Positions 17,022-22,708 of a stretch of DNA of 64,000 nt are shown here, piece after piece; position 1 is the stretch's first letter, and each line of letters opens with the position of its first letter. The stretch is from Flavobacteriales bacterium (GTDB taxonomy: Bacteria > Bacteroidota > Bacteroidia > Flavobacteriales > Schleiferiaceae): assembly GCA_017795025.1 (NCBI GenBank), contig CP051243.1, positions 1,240,001-1,304,000 on the forward strand, given 5' to 3'. Under the pieces are notes generated by a model. That model had not been told where the DNA came from, made no database searches, and saw only the letters and a program-made list of their open reading frames with translations. The translations under genes and the position numbers were made by a program.

Positions 17022-17447
17022 ATGTCTTTATCCATTTATCAAATTGACGGTCAAGCCGGAATCGAAATACCCTTTTTTGATGTTGGCGTTGCCGCTGGAG
17101 ACCCCTCTTACGTTCAGGAATACTTTCCCGATAGCATCAATATTTCTCAAGCATTGGTGAAAAATCCCAAGGCTACTTTTTGTGTACGCGTGAGCGGCCA
17201 AAGTATGGTTGGCGCCGGGATTGATGATGGTGACCTATTAATTGTGGATAAGGAATTGCAGGCTCGGGACGGACAAATCATTTTAGCGGTAATCAATGGG
17301 GATTACACCGTAAAACGACTACTCAAAAAGGAGGATGGCTATTACCTCCAACCCGAAAACCCTGCTTTTCAACCCTTGCGAATAACCCAATTCATGGATT
17401 TCCGAATTTGGGGTGTGGTTACAGGACTTATCAAAAAGATGGCATAA
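17022..17447 (+). CDS. umuD: UmuD-like S24 peptidase, no adjacent umuC
   Basis: A 141-residue protein of UmuD size. The self-cleavage site Ala25-Gly26 (VAAGDPS) lies where UmuD is cut. The catalytic serine is Ser61 in VSGQSMVGAGIDDGD and the lysine is Lys98 in YTVKRL, matching the Ser/Lys dyad spacing of E. coli UmuD (60/97). UmuD is activated by RecA filaments and partners the UmuC polymerase in SOS mutagenesis. Normally umuC follows directly. Here the next element is a cobalamin riboswitch, so the gene is an orphan in this window. It could serve a remote umuC/dinB, or act as a LexA-like self-cleaving protein, although no DNA-binding domain is present. Confidence 0.88.
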   Translation: MSLSIYQIDGQAGIEIPFFDVGVAAGDPSYVQEYFPDSINISQALVKNPKATFCVRVSGQSMVGAGIDDGDLLIVDKELQARDGQIILAVINGDYTVKRLLKKEDGYYLQPENPAFQPLRITQFMDFRIWGVVTGLIKKMA

Positions 17448-17453
17448 TTACTA

Positions 17454-17461
17454 TACCTTTG
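17454..17461 (+). promoter_or_regulatory. Predicted -7 box (TACCTTTG) for the cobalamin riboswitch transcript
   Basis: TACCTTTG matches the Bacteroidota sigma-A -7 consensus TAnnTTTG. A start about 7 nt downstream would fall right at the 5' edge of the riboswitch aptamer. No clear TTTG -33 element is visible at the usual spacing, so the call rests on the -7 match and its position. Confidence 0.55.
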
Positions 17462-17467
17462 CGGCGC

Positions 17468-17700
17468 TTTTGGTTTTTGATGTTTCATCGAAATTAAAAG
17501 GGAATTCGGTGTAAATCCGAAACTTTTCCTGAAGCTGTGTTTCTCAACACTTTTTAAGATAATGCCACTGCACTTGCGGGAAGGCCTTAAAAAGGAGATC
17601 AGTCAGAAGACCTGCCATTAGCACATACTTACTTGCTTTCAGGATAAAGGCAATAAGGCTTTGAATTGCATCTTTGGATGTAGCTTATCGCTTTACTTTT
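17468..17700 (+). promoter_or_regulatory. Cobalamin (B12) riboswitch with terminator expression platform
   Basis: The aptamer spans about 17468-17625. Conserved blocks appear in order: AAAAGGGAATTCGGTGTAAA with TCC following, then GCCACTG (17564-17570), GGGAAGG (17578-17584), and the B12 box AGTCAGAAGACCTGCC at 17601-17616. Downstream, 17646-17694 can form a long imperfect hairpin (AAAGGCAATAAGGCT against AGCTTATCGCTTT, with an inner CATC/GATG stem) followed by a T-rich run. This is a plausible ligand-controlled intrinsic terminator. It would shut off the four-gene uptake operon that begins at 17735 when intracellular cobalamin is high. Confidence 0.93.
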
Positions 17701-17734
17701 TCCCCTGGAAGTTTTTTGTTCACTTTAAAAATTC

Positions 17735-18847
17735 ATGATTCTCATGAGCAAAAAACTATTCCCGGGTCTATTAATGGCAGTGCTATTTTTAAGACCCCTT
17801 GCGGCCCAGGTCGCTTTCGCAGATGTTAAATTCTGGATTGGTTCCGGAACCGACACCACCCTCCTTGTTATCGATTTTAATGACGGTAGTACCGACTCCT
17901 CCTACCTTTGGGGCTATGCCTATTCTGGGGCGCAAAACGGCGAAGATCTACTTTTAGCAGTAGCTGCCGCAGATGAAAACCTTCAGGTAAATATTGCTGG
18001 CGGTTTTTTGAATGATGTTCTATACGGTCAACACGAAGGAATTGGCGGTCAGCCCGATTACTGGAGCACCTGGAGTGGCAGCGATACCGCCTCCTTGGTG
18101 ATGAACTCTGGCATTGCCACCCCCTTAGTAGATGGAGAATGGTTTGCCCTCAGTTATACCGACTTTAATCCGGCCACCGTACCGGGCCTTCCCATACCGG
18201 CCTTCGACCCCAGTAGCTTCGCTTTTTCCGATGTAAATCAGTGGTTTGGCAGTGGCTCCGATAGCATGGCCTTATTTATCGACTTTCAATTAGCAGGCGA
18301 TTCGGCCCGCTTGGTATTTGGCTACTTATTTAACGATTCTGTTACCGCGGCCCAGGTCCTGTCCGACCTCGATCAAAACATTCCGGGACTCAGCGTTAAT
18401 GCAGCCAGCTTCTTAAACGATATTAGCTACAATAGCTGGAATGGAATAGGCGGAGCACCTAATTACTGGAGCACCTGGTCGGGCACCAATGTCGGTAACT
18501 GGTTTCTCAATGCGGGGATCAGCACTTATGTTAAAGATGGTGAGCTTTTCGGTTGCAGTTATACCGACTTTGCCCCAGCCTTACGTCCGCAGGTGCCTTT
18601 AGGCCTTCGAGCGATTGGATTAGAACCTCAACTTCTGCCCGAAATTGCGCTTTATCCCAACCCAAGTAAGGGAAAAGCTTTCCTTCAAGTAGCAGGAAGC
18701 CACCAACTTAAGATTTACAATACTGCCGGAGTCTTAAAGTACTCGACTGATTTTAAAGATCGAATCGAGCTTAACTTAGAAGCCTGGCAAAAAGGGATTT
18801 ACCTCCTGCAGATTGATGGAGCTAGTCAGCGCTTGGTGTTACACTAA
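17735..18847 (+). CDS. T9SS-sorted protein with tandem-duplicated unknown domain, B12-regulated
   Basis: A 370-residue protein with a signal peptide ending near Ala24-Gln25; an alternative ATG lies at 17744. Two homologous domains follow, at about 28-153 and 162-280. Both contain W-x-GSG, an aspartate-phenylalanine strand, a hydrophobic GY, FLND, GIGG-x-P-x-YWSTWSG, and a DGE-x-F...SYTDF-x-PA ending. The last 70 residues (IALYPNPSKGKAFLQVAG...) are a T9SS type A sorting domain. I cannot name the repeated domain. As the first gene behind a cobalamin riboswitch, in an operon with a BtuB-like receptor and BtuG-like lipoprotein, it is inferred to act in corrinoid capture at the cell surface. The aromatic-rich YWSTWSG could contact the corrin ring, but this is speculation. 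Confidence 0.8.
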   Translation: MILMSKKLFPGLLMAVLFLRPLAAQVAFADVKFWIGSGTDTTLLVIDFNDGSTDSSYLWGYAYSGAQNGEDLLLAVAAADENLQVNIAGGFLNDVLYGQHEGIGGQPDYWSTWSGSDTASLVMNSGIATPLVDGEWFALSYTDFNPATVPGLPIPAFDPSSFAFSDVNQWFGSGSDSMALFIDFQLAGDSARLVFGYLFNDSVTAAQVLSDLDQNIPGLSVNAASFLNDISYNSWNGIGGAPNYWSTWSGTNVGNWFLNAGISTYVKDGELFGCSYTDFAPALRPQVPLGLRAIGLEPQLLPEIALYPNPSKGKAFLQVAGSHQLKIYNTAGVLKYSTDFKDRIELNLEAWQKGIYLLQIDGASQRLVLH

Positions 18848-19788
18848 TGCGTATTCTTTTCTTCATAGTACTCTTAGGAGGAACGCTTCAAGCGCAAAGT
18901 CCCGGGCCTTTTGCTCCGGCTGCTGGAATGCCTGGTAGCAGTGCCATTCATAAAGACAGCTCCTTAATCGATAGCTGGGCGCAATTGGGCTGGTTAGAGC
19001 AAAGAGGTTGGCTCGATATTGCCAATAAAAGTTTAGGCTATGCTAGTCACGGGGATACCGCGTATGCTATGGCTTACGCTGATGGGCAAGTTATTAGCTT
19101 AGGCGATAGTGGTCGATTTGTTTATCATCTACCGCAAGGTATTTGGGATCATTCCGGAGCAGAGTTTGCCATTTTTGAGAATAGCTTTAGCGATGTATTT
19201 CTCGAATTGGCCTTTGTGGAAGTAAGTAAAGATGGACAGCATTACCATCGGTTTCCCGCCTTGTGTTTATTAGATAGCAGCAGCCAAACGGGAGCCTTTG
19301 GAACGAGCGAGCCTACGCGAATACATAATTTGGCGGGAAAGTACCGGGCCGATTTTGGGGTTCCTTTCGACTTGGCCGATATCACTGGGCTGGATACGGT
19401 TTACTACATCCGAATAATAGATGTTATTGGTAGCATTAACCCCCAATGGGCCAGTCGCGACGCTCAGGGGCGAATAATTAATGATCCCTACCCCACCGCT
19501 TTTGCCTCTGGAGGTTTCGACTTAGATGCCCTTGCTATTTTAAATCCTAATAGCCTTTCGGCAGATGCGGCTCAGAGAATGGTTCATCGGGCCTACCCTA
19601 ATCCCGCAAGTCATTACGTTAGGGTGCCACAGGCGAAGAGTTTAAGGCTTTACAATAGTTCGGGGCGACTGCTTCTCGAGTCCTTAGGCTCCAAACTCGA
19701 TCTAGCCCAACTGCCTCCTGGATATTACCTCTTGGAGGCCACTTTTGCCTCCGGGTCTCGTCAAATGGAAAAGCTCTACCACAAATGA
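18847..19788 (+). CDS. T9SS-sorted cell-surface protein in the B12 operon
   Basis: A 313-residue protein with signal peptide MRILFFIVLLGGTLQAQ. The central domain (about 50-235) contains LGDSGRFVYHLPQGI, FAIFENSF, LELAFVEVSKDGQHYHRFPA and FASGGFDLDALAIL, a beta-sandwich-like pattern seen in Bacteroidota cell surface proteins of unknown role. The final 70 residues (YPNPASHYVRVPQAKSLRLY...) are a T9SS sorting domain. Its ATG shares one base with the TAA of the preceding gene, and its own stop overlaps the receptor gene, so all are tightly coupled under the cobalamin riboswitch. The suggested role is surface binding or presentation of corrinoids. No binding residues can be named. Confidence 0.8.
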   Translation: MRILFFIVLLGGTLQAQSPGPFAPAAGMPGSSAIHKDSSLIDSWAQLGWLEQRGWLDIANKSLGYASHGDTAYAMAYADGQVISLGDSGRFVYHLPQGIWDHSGAEFAIFENSFSDVFLELAFVEVSKDGQHYHRFPALCLLDSSSQTGAFGTSEPTRIHNLAGKYRADFGVPFDLADITGLDTVYYIRIIDVIGSINPQWASRDAQGRIINDPYPTAFASGGFDLDALAILNPNSLSADAAQRMVHRAYPNPASHYVRVPQAKSLRLYNSSGRLLLESLGSKLDLAQLPPGYYLLEATFASGSRQMEKLYHK

Positions 19789-21731
19789 GAAACAGCCTCC
19801 TTGGCTTAGGGCTATTCTTGGTTCCGCTTATTAGCTGCGGACAGGAAAAGGACAGTGCAAACTATAGCATTATCCTTGAGGATACTATTTTCCAATTTAG
19901 GAGCATCGACGTTTTCGCGCATTACAGCCAAGGTCCTAATAAAGCCCACAAAACCAGTGTCATTAGTGAAGATAGCTTGAACCGCTTCCAGTCTTTCAAT
20001 TTAGCCGAAGCGCTTAAACAGGGTACCGCGCTCTTTGTGAAATCCTATGGCGCTAATGGGGTGGCCAGCTTAAATCTTCGGGGAACCGGGGCCAGTCATA
20101 CCAAGGTGTACTGGAATGGCCTCGACATTTCCCCACCGGGCTTAGGTTTGATGGATTTATCCTTACTCCCCAGGGACCCTTTCGAATATAGCGAGCTGAG
20201 CTATGGCGCTGGGGCTCTTCCCTTAAGCTCCGGGAATATTGGTGGTGGCCTGTTTATGCATACGGTGCCTTATGCGCGGGGAAATCAACGAAGTCAGCTG
20301 CAATTAGGTAGTGGAAGTTTTGGCCGCCAATCCTACCTCCTTTCCAACCGCAGTAGTATTCAAAACTTACGCAGTGTAAGCAGCATCTCTTACCAAAGTA
20401 GCGCTAATGACTTTAAGTATCGGCTGCCGGGTGAAACGGAGCGAAAGCATCAACAGCAAAATGCCCAAATTGAACAGTTTCATATCAAACAAGGCTTGCA
20501 TTACCGGCTAAATAGTAAACAGCATATTGGCCTTAACGCTTGGTACAATTTTACCAATCGGGAAATTCCGCGCATCGCCATCGCTAATGCCAGCGTTCAC
20601 GACCGAATGGAAGACGAGAACTTCTACCTCAATGCCGATTGGCAATATGCCATCAATGCACGGCAATCACGTATTCATTGGACCATGGGCTTGGTAAACT
20701 CCTCTAACCGCTTTTATTTGCTAAATGAAGCTGTACCGAGCCGCAATGATTACCGCAGCTATCAGTCTATATTTAAATACGTACTCAGCCCCAAAGACAA
20801 GCCCGGTGTTTACACGCGCAAACTAGAATTTAGCTTGCAAAATCGCTACGACATAGTACGTAACGATGCCTACACCCAGGCCCAGGGGCGCTACACCAAT
20901 GCGCTATATGGAAACTACACCCTCTTGTTGCATTCGGGTTGGGAACTCGGTGCTCAAGGGCGCTTTGAAGTTTTTGACCGTAAGCTGGCCCCCTTAACTG
21001 GTAGTATAAGTTTAGCTTATCAGGCAAAAAATAATTGGAAGCTCTATACCAACCTCAGTCGCAATTACCGCCTACCGGGATTAAACGACTTGTATTGGCA
21101 ACCGGGCGGGAATCCTAGTCTAGAACCGGAATTATCCCATGGAATTGATCTTGGTTATCAGCAGGAGCTGAGGAAGGAACATCAAAGCTTAAGCTGGGAG
21201 CTAAACCTCTTTTGGATGCAAGTGCAGAATTGGATTCAATGGACTCCGAATAATGGAGTTTGGAGCGCCCAAAATTACAAGGAGGTGGCCAACTCAGGAC
21301 TGGAGGCCAGTTTAAATCAGCAATATAAATTTGGCGCTTTGGCTATCGGCCTTGGAATACAATATCAGTACCTAAGGAGTCTTAATTTGGGCAGTACGGC
21401 TAATCCTAGCTTAGAAGGTAAAACCTTGCCTTTTAATCCTAGTCATAACTTCAATTCACAAATTAGTTTGCATTACCATAAGGTGCAACTGGCTTATCAA
21501 TTTAATTTCACCGACCGCTATTTTTTAGATGAGGCTAATTATTATTATCTCCCCTCCTATGCGGTTCAAGACTTACGTTTCGGCTATAAATTCGATTGGC
21601 ATGATCAGCATCTGCAAATTCAATTAGGCATCAATAATTTAGGAAACCGCGATTATCAAATCATTGCTTGGCGACCCGAACCCGGCATTCACTATTACCT
21701 TTCATTAGTATGGGATTGGCGAAAAAACTGA
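19785..21731 (+). CDS. btuB: TonB-dependent outer-membrane receptor, BtuB-like cobalamin transporter
   Basis: A 648-residue protein with a signal peptide (Cys18 near the cleavage region). A plug domain covers about 45-165, with SVISEDSLNRFQSFNLAEALKQG, NLRGTGASHTKVYWNGLDI and a GSGNIGG-type end, followed by a 22-strand-sized beta-barrel. The C-terminus (LQIQLGINNLGNRDYQIIAWRPEPGIHYYLSL) has the expected terminal strands and aromatic end. Its length is near that of E. coli BtuB and shorter than SusC-type receptors. Substrate assignment comes from the cobalamin riboswitch and neighbours, not from residues I can recognise. ATGA-type coupling joins it to the upstream gene, and the downstream lipoprotein begins inside its 3' end. 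Confidence 0.88.
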   Translation: MRNSLLGLGLFLVPLISCGQEKDSANYSIILEDTIFQFRSIDVFAHYSQGPNKAHKTSVISEDSLNRFQSFNLAEALKQGTALFVKSYGANGVASLNLRGTGASHTKVYWNGLDISPPGLGLMDLSLLPRDPFEYSELSYGAGALPLSSGNIGGGLFMHTVPYARGNQRSQLQLGSGSFGRQSYLLSNRSSIQNLRSVSSISYQSSANDFKYRLPGETERKHQQQNAQIEQFHIKQGLHYRLNSKQHIGLNAWYNFTNREIPRIAIANASVHDRMEDENFYLNADWQYAINARQSRIHWTMGLVNSSNRFYLLNEAVPSRNDYRSYQSIFKYVLSPKDKPGVYTRKLEFSLQNRYDIVRNDAYTQAQGRYTNALYGNYTLLLHSGWELGAQGRFEVFDRKLAPLTGSISLAYQAKNNWKLYTNLSRNYRLPGLNDLYWQPGGNPSLEPELSHGIDLGYQQELRKEHQSLSWELNLFWMQVQNWIQWTPNNGVWSAQNYKEVANSGLEASLNQQYKFGALAIGLGIQYQYLRSLNLGSTANPSLEGKTLPFNPSHNFNSQISLHYHKVQLAYQFNFTDRYFLDEANYYYLPSYAVQDLRFGYKFDWHDQHLQIQLGINNLGNRDYQIIAWRPEPGIHYYLSLVWDWRKN

Positions 21732-22708
21732 TACTTGTTTGGGCTAGCCTTAGCTTACTTGCAGCCTGTCACAAGGATTTAGGTCCGCAGTCTGTATCCG
21801 GTAACCAAGTAGTGCCCGACTCCAATGCGGTGATCATCGTAAATGAAGGGAATTTCCAATGGGGGAATGCCAGTTTAGGGCAGTACAACCCCGATTTAGA
21901 CCTTTATGAAGATGGGCTTTTTCGGGAGACCAATGCAGAGGCCCTGGGTGATGTCATTCAAGAAGCCCATAAAATTGGCGATCGCTATTATTTGGTGATG
22001 AATGGTTCCAATGAACTGATCATTTGCGACAGCGAATGGGAAGTCCAAAAGCGCGTGGCCGGACAAAGTGCTCCCTACAGACTCTATTTTTGGCAAGGCA
22101 AAATCTGCCTTAGCGATTATTATCAATCTAAACTGTGGTTCTTGGATTTAGAGGGGAAGCTGCTCTCCGAAAAGCCCATCTCGGGAGCCCCACAAAGCCT
22201 GCTCACTTGGCGCGGTAATTTGATTCTAGCGCATCAGCGAAAGCTTGAAAGCCTAAAGGATGAAAATAGTTCAAGCCAAATAATTTGGACGAGCGATGCG
22301 GATATTTCCGCGGTACTAAACTTTAATAATGAATTATTTATCGCCGCTGCAGATGGGCAGCTATGGCGTTGGTCCCATCCCGATTCTAGTTTAGTATTGG
22401 TAGACAGCCTAACTATTGAAAGCGGAAGCCTAGTCGATGCTGAAGACGCTTTTTACAGTTACGATGGTGACAGTATTTACCGCCATAGTGCAGGGCGGCA
22501 GTATAAAGCTCAGCCCTTAAGCGCGGTAACCTGCGAAAACTATTACGGCCTCGATTACCATCAAAAAAGCCAATGCCTTTACCTTTTTGATGCCCAGCAG
22601 TATATTGCCCCACATCGGGTGCGGCGCATCAGTGCTGCAAATGGGCAAATACTAAACGACTTTGAAGCAGGCGCTTTACCGAATGGATTGGTAAAGGTTT
22701 GGGATTAA
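21710..22708 (+). CDS. BtuG-like beta-propeller surface lipoprotein (YncE/DUF5074 type)
   Basis: The ATG at 21710 gives MGLAKKLILVWASLSLLAAC, a lipoprotein signal with Cys20; the TTG at 21668 is an unlikely start. The 332-residue mature region opens with VIIVNEGNFQWGNASLGQY and continues with ALGDVIQEAHKIGDRYYLVMN, the pattern of DUF5074/YncE-like propellers. In Bacteroides, BtuG proteins of this fold cap BtuB and bind cobalamin with extreme affinity. Here the gene overlaps the 3' end of the BtuB-like receptor gene by 22 bp and ends the riboswitch operon. I infer the same role. The propeller blades are not all identifiable by eye. Confidence 0.83.
   Translation: MGLAKKLILVWASLSLLAACHKDLGPQSVSGNQVVPDSNAVIIVNEGNFQWGNASLGQYNPDLDLYEDGLFRETNAEALGDVIQEAHKIGDRYYLVMNGSNELIICDSEWEVQKRVAGQSAPYRLYFWQGKICLSDYYQSKLWFLDLEGKLLSEKPISGAPQSLLTWRGNLILAHQRKLESLKDENSSSQIIWTSDADISAVLNFNNELFIAAADGQLWRWSHPDSSLVLVDSLTIESGSLVDAEDAFYSYDGDSIYRHSAGRQYKAQPLSAVTCENYYGLDYHQKSQCLYLFDAQQYIAPHRVRRISAANGQILNDFEAGALPNGLVKVWD

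Follow-up and report, generated by a model that had tools for sequence, protein, structure and literature searches.

What do two secreted proteins do at the head of an operon that ends with a vitamin B12 receptor pair? The question is raised by the window analysed here, a stretch of 64,000 nucleotides from a Flavobacteriales bacterium of the family Schleiferiaceae (assembly GCA_017795025.1, contig CP051243.1, positions 1,240,001 to 1,304,000, forward strand), in which a cobalamin riboswitch precedes four genes, here called P1, P2, BtuB-like and BtuG-like. A first-pass annotation had proposed that the products of the first two genes, which it took to be sorted by the type IX secretion system (T9SS), enlarge the surface capture apparatus formed by BtuB and BtuG, and could name a family for neither. 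Our analysis leads us to consider it probable that the locus encodes outer-membrane capture of B12 (corrinoid) under repression by the riboswitch, with P1 and P2 as T9SS-exported binders feeding BtuG and BtuB. The features are as follows.

17454-17633, + strand: cobalamin riboswitch aptamer RF00174 (cmscan 101 bits, E 4.2e-24)
17635-17717, + strand: expression platform, probably an intrinsic terminator; outer stem CTTTCAGG...CCTGGAAG with T6 after it (from the fold and its recurrence in relatives)
17735-18847, + strand: P1, a T9SS cargo protein whose predicted fold comprises two transcobalamin-beta-like domains in tandem (start possibly the ATG at 17744)
17834-18160, + strand: P1 repeat 1, predicted strand-strand-helix-hairpin-three strands (AlphaFold 2 (AF2) secondary structure, model residues 10-118)
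18242-18565, + strand: P1 repeat 2, same predicted element order (AF2, model residues 146-253; hhalign to the transcobalamin/intrinsic factor/haptocorrin (TC/IF/HC) family, E 0.003)
18650-18829, + strand: P1 type IX secretion C-terminal sorting domain (PF18962, 34.4 bits, cut-off 27)
18847-19788, + strand: P2, T9SS cargo of a B12-locus family and probable distant BtuH relative
18910-19548, + strand: conserved core of P2, about 210 aa (alignments A1 and A3)
19594-19761, + strand: P2 type IX secretion C-terminal sorting domain (PF18962, 27.1 bits, cut-off 27; TIGR04183, 28.2 bits, cut-off 23)
19785-21731, + strand: BtuB-like TonB-dependent receptor (Pfam plug and barrel; TIGR01779, E 3e-24)
21710-22708, + strand: BtuG-like beta-propeller lipoprotein (phmmer match to 8p97_B; lipobox; DUF5074 below cut-off)

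Relatives of both proteins lie mostly behind cobalamin riboswitches. P1-domain genes are much rarer than P2 genes, being found in 8 of 395 genomes of a phylum sample by single-sequence search and in 32 of 296 genomes from the order by profile search. For a collection scan the narrower alignment A8 was taken, since A4 contained no sufficiently conserved stretch. Among the 36 P1 loci outside the window that were excised with their flanks, 35 have a cobalamin riboswitch upstream and the exception is at a contig end. The arrangement riboswitch-P1-P2-BtuB-BtuG occurs in seven relatives from the family of the window, with the variant riboswitch-BtuB-P1-P2-BtuG in one; other loci read riboswitch-P1(single)-BtuB-BtuG, or riboswitch-BtuB-BtuG-BtuH followed by a P1 domain joined to a DUF5074 propeller and a T9SS tail. 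At five loci, in other genera, the riboswitch precedes P1 alone. In these stand-alone loci (L062 and L138-L141, with two neighbouring units at L139) the product is a two-repeat T9SS protein, and no BtuB was found beside it. A pattern scan of named genomes, a biased sample since its patterns were drawn from fused-type domains and one that partly overlaps the earlier draws, added 80 P1 loci, mostly from Chryseobacterium and Flavobacterium plus Bacteroides pyogenes; BtuG and BtuH are nearby in all 80 and BtuB in 79, and 77 encode the P1 domain and a DUF5074 propeller as one fusion protein.

For P2, a survey that sampled 149 genomes evenly across the class returned 45 strong homologues in 44 genomes. 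A same-strand cobalamin riboswitch lies within 6 kb upstream of 30 of them (about 0.05 expected), a DUF4465 gene is directly upstream of 21, and 33 have either the riboswitch or DUF4465. In one genome, DUF4465 and P2 form a natural fusion of 534 aa with one T9SS tail (L037:7335-8939), located 3' of a cobalamin riboswitch and BtuB. Since genomes of this kind commonly encode T9SS-tailed proteins, P1 and P2 might be surface proteins whose presence in the operon is a coincidence. We regard this as extremely improbable, because it is strongly contradicted by the riboswitch linkage and also by the fusions of the P1 domain to a BtuG-like propeller and of P2 to DUF4465. The homologues do not sit mostly away from B12 riboswitches or receptors, the outcome that the first-pass annotation had named as fatal to its proposal, and the enlarged capture apparatus is borne out as far as context goes, by these counts and by the position of the two genes beside BtuB and BtuG. 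Two further observations concern P2 loci. The homologues at L035, L040, L047 and L048 stand away from riboswitch, BtuB and BtuG, and a riboswitch-BtuB-BtuG-P2 locus is closely preceded by corrinoid-salvage genes at L051:599-4322 (a BluB-CobT fusion according to NCBIfam, and genes judged CobU- and CobS-like by eye).

The AF2 model of P1, built on an alignment of 15 full-length homologues (mean predicted local distance difference test score, pLDDT, 83; predicted template modelling score, pTM, 0.69), contains two repeats, each predicted to run strand, strand, helix, two-strand hairpin and three strands. This order is the distinguishing mark of the transcobalamin clade among beta-grasp domains, and the hairpin of the clade is a prominent contributor to B12 contacts (Burroughs et al., PMC1796856). 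The transcobalamin idea was recorded ahead of the fold search, in which Foldseek compared the model with 350,542 PDB chains. Transcobalamin appeared about 13 times in the best 50 PDB matches (among them 7qbe, 2bb6, 4zrp and 8ixu) with probability up to 1.00, and 8ixu aligned over 109 columns with a root-mean-square deviation of 3.9 at a probability of 1.00. In profile comparison by hhalign with the TC/IF/HC family, for which the TC query sequence agrees with its PDB chain exactly and the IF query save for one residue, repeat 2 gave the E-value listed above and both repeats together 0.006, scores that none of 150 column shuffles or 26 unrelated sequence windows reached. This sequence similarity is weak, but the two sides stay in register, with collinear landmarks that pair EDVLKKA with GEDLLLAV, (F/Y)W with YW, and GIADY..DGE with GIAT..DGE. 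The clade has two signature glycines, one after strand 2 and one ahead of the third core strand; by eye, one invariant glycine of P1 (in GGFLN) matches, and the glycine after strand 2 is kept only partly. From the model, P1 is predicted to consist of tandem transcobalamin-beta-like domains.

Several results weigh against this assignment. In hhalign, repeat 1 alone is background-like (E 0.31), the merged set of all P1 domains reaches E 0.044, and the probability is just 6-10%. The Foldseek E-values for transcobalamin are modest, about 2e-3 to 7e-3, unrelated beta folds are ranked in between the transcobalamin matches, and whole-model TM-scores are low. The hidden Markov model (HMM) of DUF4430 (PF14478) does not match P1, nor did it match any P1 locus across 20 P1-bearing genomes, for which reason P1 is described here as transcobalamin-beta-like from its predicted fold and is not placed in DUF4430. 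Searches of PDB with the single sequences of P1 and P2 gave at most a weak match to the T9SS tail, the P1 profile had no matches in PDB, and Foldseek of P1 against viral models gave nothing informative. A relationship of P1 to P2 or to BtuH was also considered and rejected, as hhalign gave no signal.

P1 shares with the C-terminal beta domain of transcobalamin, intrinsic factor and haptocorrin (the SLBB transcobalamin-like clade, PMC1796856; structures in PMC5599065) the predicted element order, the Foldseek matches and the hhalign landmarks, as well as a predicted extracellular location and a link to B12. In contrast to these carriers, it has no alpha/alpha-toroid partner, and it carries two tandem beta domains and a T9SS tail. 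It also comes from Bacteroidota, whereas the clade was reported in animals, low-GC Gram-positives, planctomycetes and some archaea, and it differs from the clade in being missed by the DUF4430 HMM. The isolated beta domain of human transcobalamin binds cyanocobalamin (PMC5599065), so binding by a beta domain is feasible where no alpha domain is present. It is possible, and we suggest it tentatively, that P1 is a bacterial counterpart of transcobalamin in which the two tandem SLBB beta domains would sandwich one corrinoid, replacing the alpha/beta pair of the animal proteins. Such a T9SS-exported B12 carrier, surface-bound or released, would be recognised by BtuG/BtuB or by the fused propeller of Flavobacterium and Chryseobacterium.

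P2 points to a different family. With a profile of 25 P2 proteins, the best non-tail match in PDB was the BtuH domain of BtuG1 from Bacteroides thetaiotaomicron (8blw_B, E 0.0025), the P2 HMM matches BtuH genes of relatives at E about 5e-4, and hhalign against a BtuH alignment gave P 1.7e-4 over 35 columns; the naming of these BtuH genes was confirmed for one of them against PDB (7biz, E 7e-41). P2 has the BtuH core motif SLG..GG...F...I.N..G.DF....N.F, and both families occur in riboswitch-BtuB-BtuG loci. Compared with BtuH (BT_1956, BT_1488 and the C-terminal domain of BT_1490; PMC8941943), the core of P2 is about 50-60 aa shorter, PKD domains and lipobox are absent, a T9SS tail is present, and the similarity beyond the core motif is not significant. 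The case for a binder of this type is weakened by the extent of the similarity, which covers about 35-45 columns, by the core-only P2 profile, which finds no BtuH in PDB, by the absence of BtuH from the top 50 Foldseek matches of the P2 model, and by the 12 of 45 homologues with neither riboswitch nor DUF4465 close by (two of them, G113 and G071, on short contigs). Taken as sequence evidence, the matches make P2 a probable distant BtuH homologue. The first-pass view that neither protein can be given a family is thereby superseded, P1 being transcobalamin-beta-like by predicted fold and P2 a probable distant relative of BtuH.

The predicted fold of P2 also bears on whether P1, P2 or both might be releasing factors, which liberate corrinoid held by other carriers, by cells or by particles, through hydrolysis or displacement, and do not store it. 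T9SS cargo is often enzymatic, and the P2 model is beta-sandwich-like and generic, with weak Foldseek matches to carbohydrate-binding and discoidin-type domains and to the T9SS tail. BtuG2 is moreover able to take B12 from intrinsic factor (PMC6143338). No enzyme family matched either P1 or P2 in searches that included Pfam and NCBIfam, and we judge the release of corrinoid very unlikely as their function.

How does a binder role fit the place of P1 in the operon? B12 binding has been demonstrated for DUF4465 proteins, namely BtuJ1, BtuJ2 and six diverse members (PMC12751083, PMC13398666), and 229 of 824 DUF4465 proteins, about 28%, carry the T9SS tail annotation IPR026444 (PMC12751083), so that annotation already leads one to expect B12 binders exported by T9SS. 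P1 fills the slot that DUF4465/BtuJ holds in relatives, directly before P2, and the role proposed for it is like that of BtuJ. It differs from BtuJ in family: PF14717 matches neither P1 nor P2, which rules out either as a DUF4465/BtuJ protein, and no DUF4465 gene was found in the genome of the window. At L041:6340-7608, in the order riboswitch-X-P2-BtuB-BtuG, gene X encodes a T9SS protein of 422 aa whose sole NCBIfam match was the T9SS tail; it is possibly a third occupant of the slot.

Context evidence by itself cannot tell a binder from a helper, and P1 and P2 could aid B12 uptake without binding corrinoid, either as structural or assembly partners of BtuB and BtuG or as promoters of vesicle release. 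The B. thetaiotaomicron operon lipoproteins BtuL and BtuK2 offer a precedent: neither binds cobalamin, and BtuL has been reported to favour the early release of vesicles (PMC12751083). This helper role appears unlikely to us given that the predicted fold of P1 matches a B12-carrier domain, that P1 also forms a stand-alone riboswitch unit without an adjoining receptor, and that P2 resembles BtuH and comes after DUF4465. Like P1 and P2, BtuK and BtuL of Bacteroides are accessory proteins within riboswitch-B12 loci (PMC12751083), and Bacteroides pyogenes has a P1-domain lipoprotein adjoining BtuH (L050/L171). No B. thetaiotaomicron locus is among the 80 retained scan loci, which is a weak test of whether P1 corresponds to BtuK or BtuL.

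The first-pass description was confirmed for the riboswitch, the four overlapping genes (successive overlaps of 1, 4 and 22 bp), the T9SS tails of the first two products and the BtuB- and BtuG-like character of the last two. For the third gene, the B12 receptor model TIGR01779 is the best NCBIfam match, and as its score lies under the equivalog cut-off (85 versus 599.7 bits) we call the product BtuB-like. The last gene product has BtuG chain 8p97_B as its top PDB match (phmmer E 3.6e-13), a lipobox (LLAAC) and an adjoining BtuB, with DUF5074 at 23.2 bits under the cut-off of 27.2. As in the BtuB-BtuG pair of Bacteroides (PMC10404256, PMC6143338), a BtuB-like receptor adjoins a BtuG-like lipoprotein; the differences are the sub-cut-off score of the receptor and the best alignment of the BtuG-like protein, which spans only about residues 39-130. 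Both P1 and P2 carry a sorting domain above cut-off, that of P2 being borderline in Pfam as it clears PF18962 by 0.1 bits, and the genome encodes SprA (E 6e-159). B12 enzymes are encoded as well, and a BtuC-type FecCD permease was not found in this genome; two weak FecCD matches (G000:C1:2726181-2728129; L154, L155) resemble metal permeases of the ABC-3 type.

The aptamer is the single cobalamin riboswitch of the whole genome (3.44 Mb, one contig). Between it and the P1 start codon sits a long hairpin with the arms CTTTCAGG (17636-17643) and CCTGGAAG (17704-17711), followed by T6 at 17712-17717. The first-pass annotation had placed an intrinsic-terminator platform here. A simple scanner for short-loop terminators found none 3' of the aptamer, because the loop of the hairpin is long, and the fold has no extra stability over composition shuffles (z -1.2). 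The arms and T-run are present, slightly altered, in six of seven relatives, the extract of the seventh ending within the 3' arm, and an intrinsic transcription terminator 3' of the aptamer is therefore likely. Within 17710-17755, AGTTTTTTGTTC, which includes the terminator T-run, is able to pair with the start region GAGCAAAAAACT, and relatives have a like pairing potential, so a translational switch is possible too. Upstream, an S24-type peptidase gene (17022-17447; UmuD/LexA-like by length and family) stops 6 bp 5' of the aptamer match.

Taken together, we propose that low intracellular cobalamin would let the riboswitch permit transcription into P1, P2, BtuB and BtuG. BtuB and BtuG would form the known lidded receptor, and P1 and P2 would leave the cell through Sec and then the type IX system to reach the surface or the medium. 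There they would act as extra binders of corrinoid, P1 through its two tandem transcobalamin/intrinsic-factor beta-type domains and P2 through a divergent BtuH-type domain, with P1 in this lineage serving in the position of DUF4465/BtuJ. We infer that P1 and P2 may bind corrinoid outside the cell and may pass it to BtuG/BtuB, the hand-over following the one that has been proposed for BtuH of Bacteroides (PMC10404256).

Riboswitch-controlled B12 capture in Bacteroidota is already known as a kind of system. The new elements are a T9SS-exported tandem-domain protein whose predicted fold is transcobalamin-like, its occupation of the slot of BtuJ and, in other genera, the joining of its domain to a BtuG-like propeller. 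The findings suggest that unrelated binder folds (BtuJ, BtuH-like and transcobalamin-like) swap within the same operon slot. B12 binding by bacterial transcobalamin-type domains was predicted in 2007 on the basis of sequence and structural comparisons (PMC1796856). A predicted domain of this type in Bacteroidota, directly controlled by a B12 riboswitch and in some genera fused to a B12-receptor propeller, would turn that prediction into an experiment, and the reach of B12 scavenging in Bacteroidota would extend beyond lipoproteins to proteins that environmental lineages export by T9SS.

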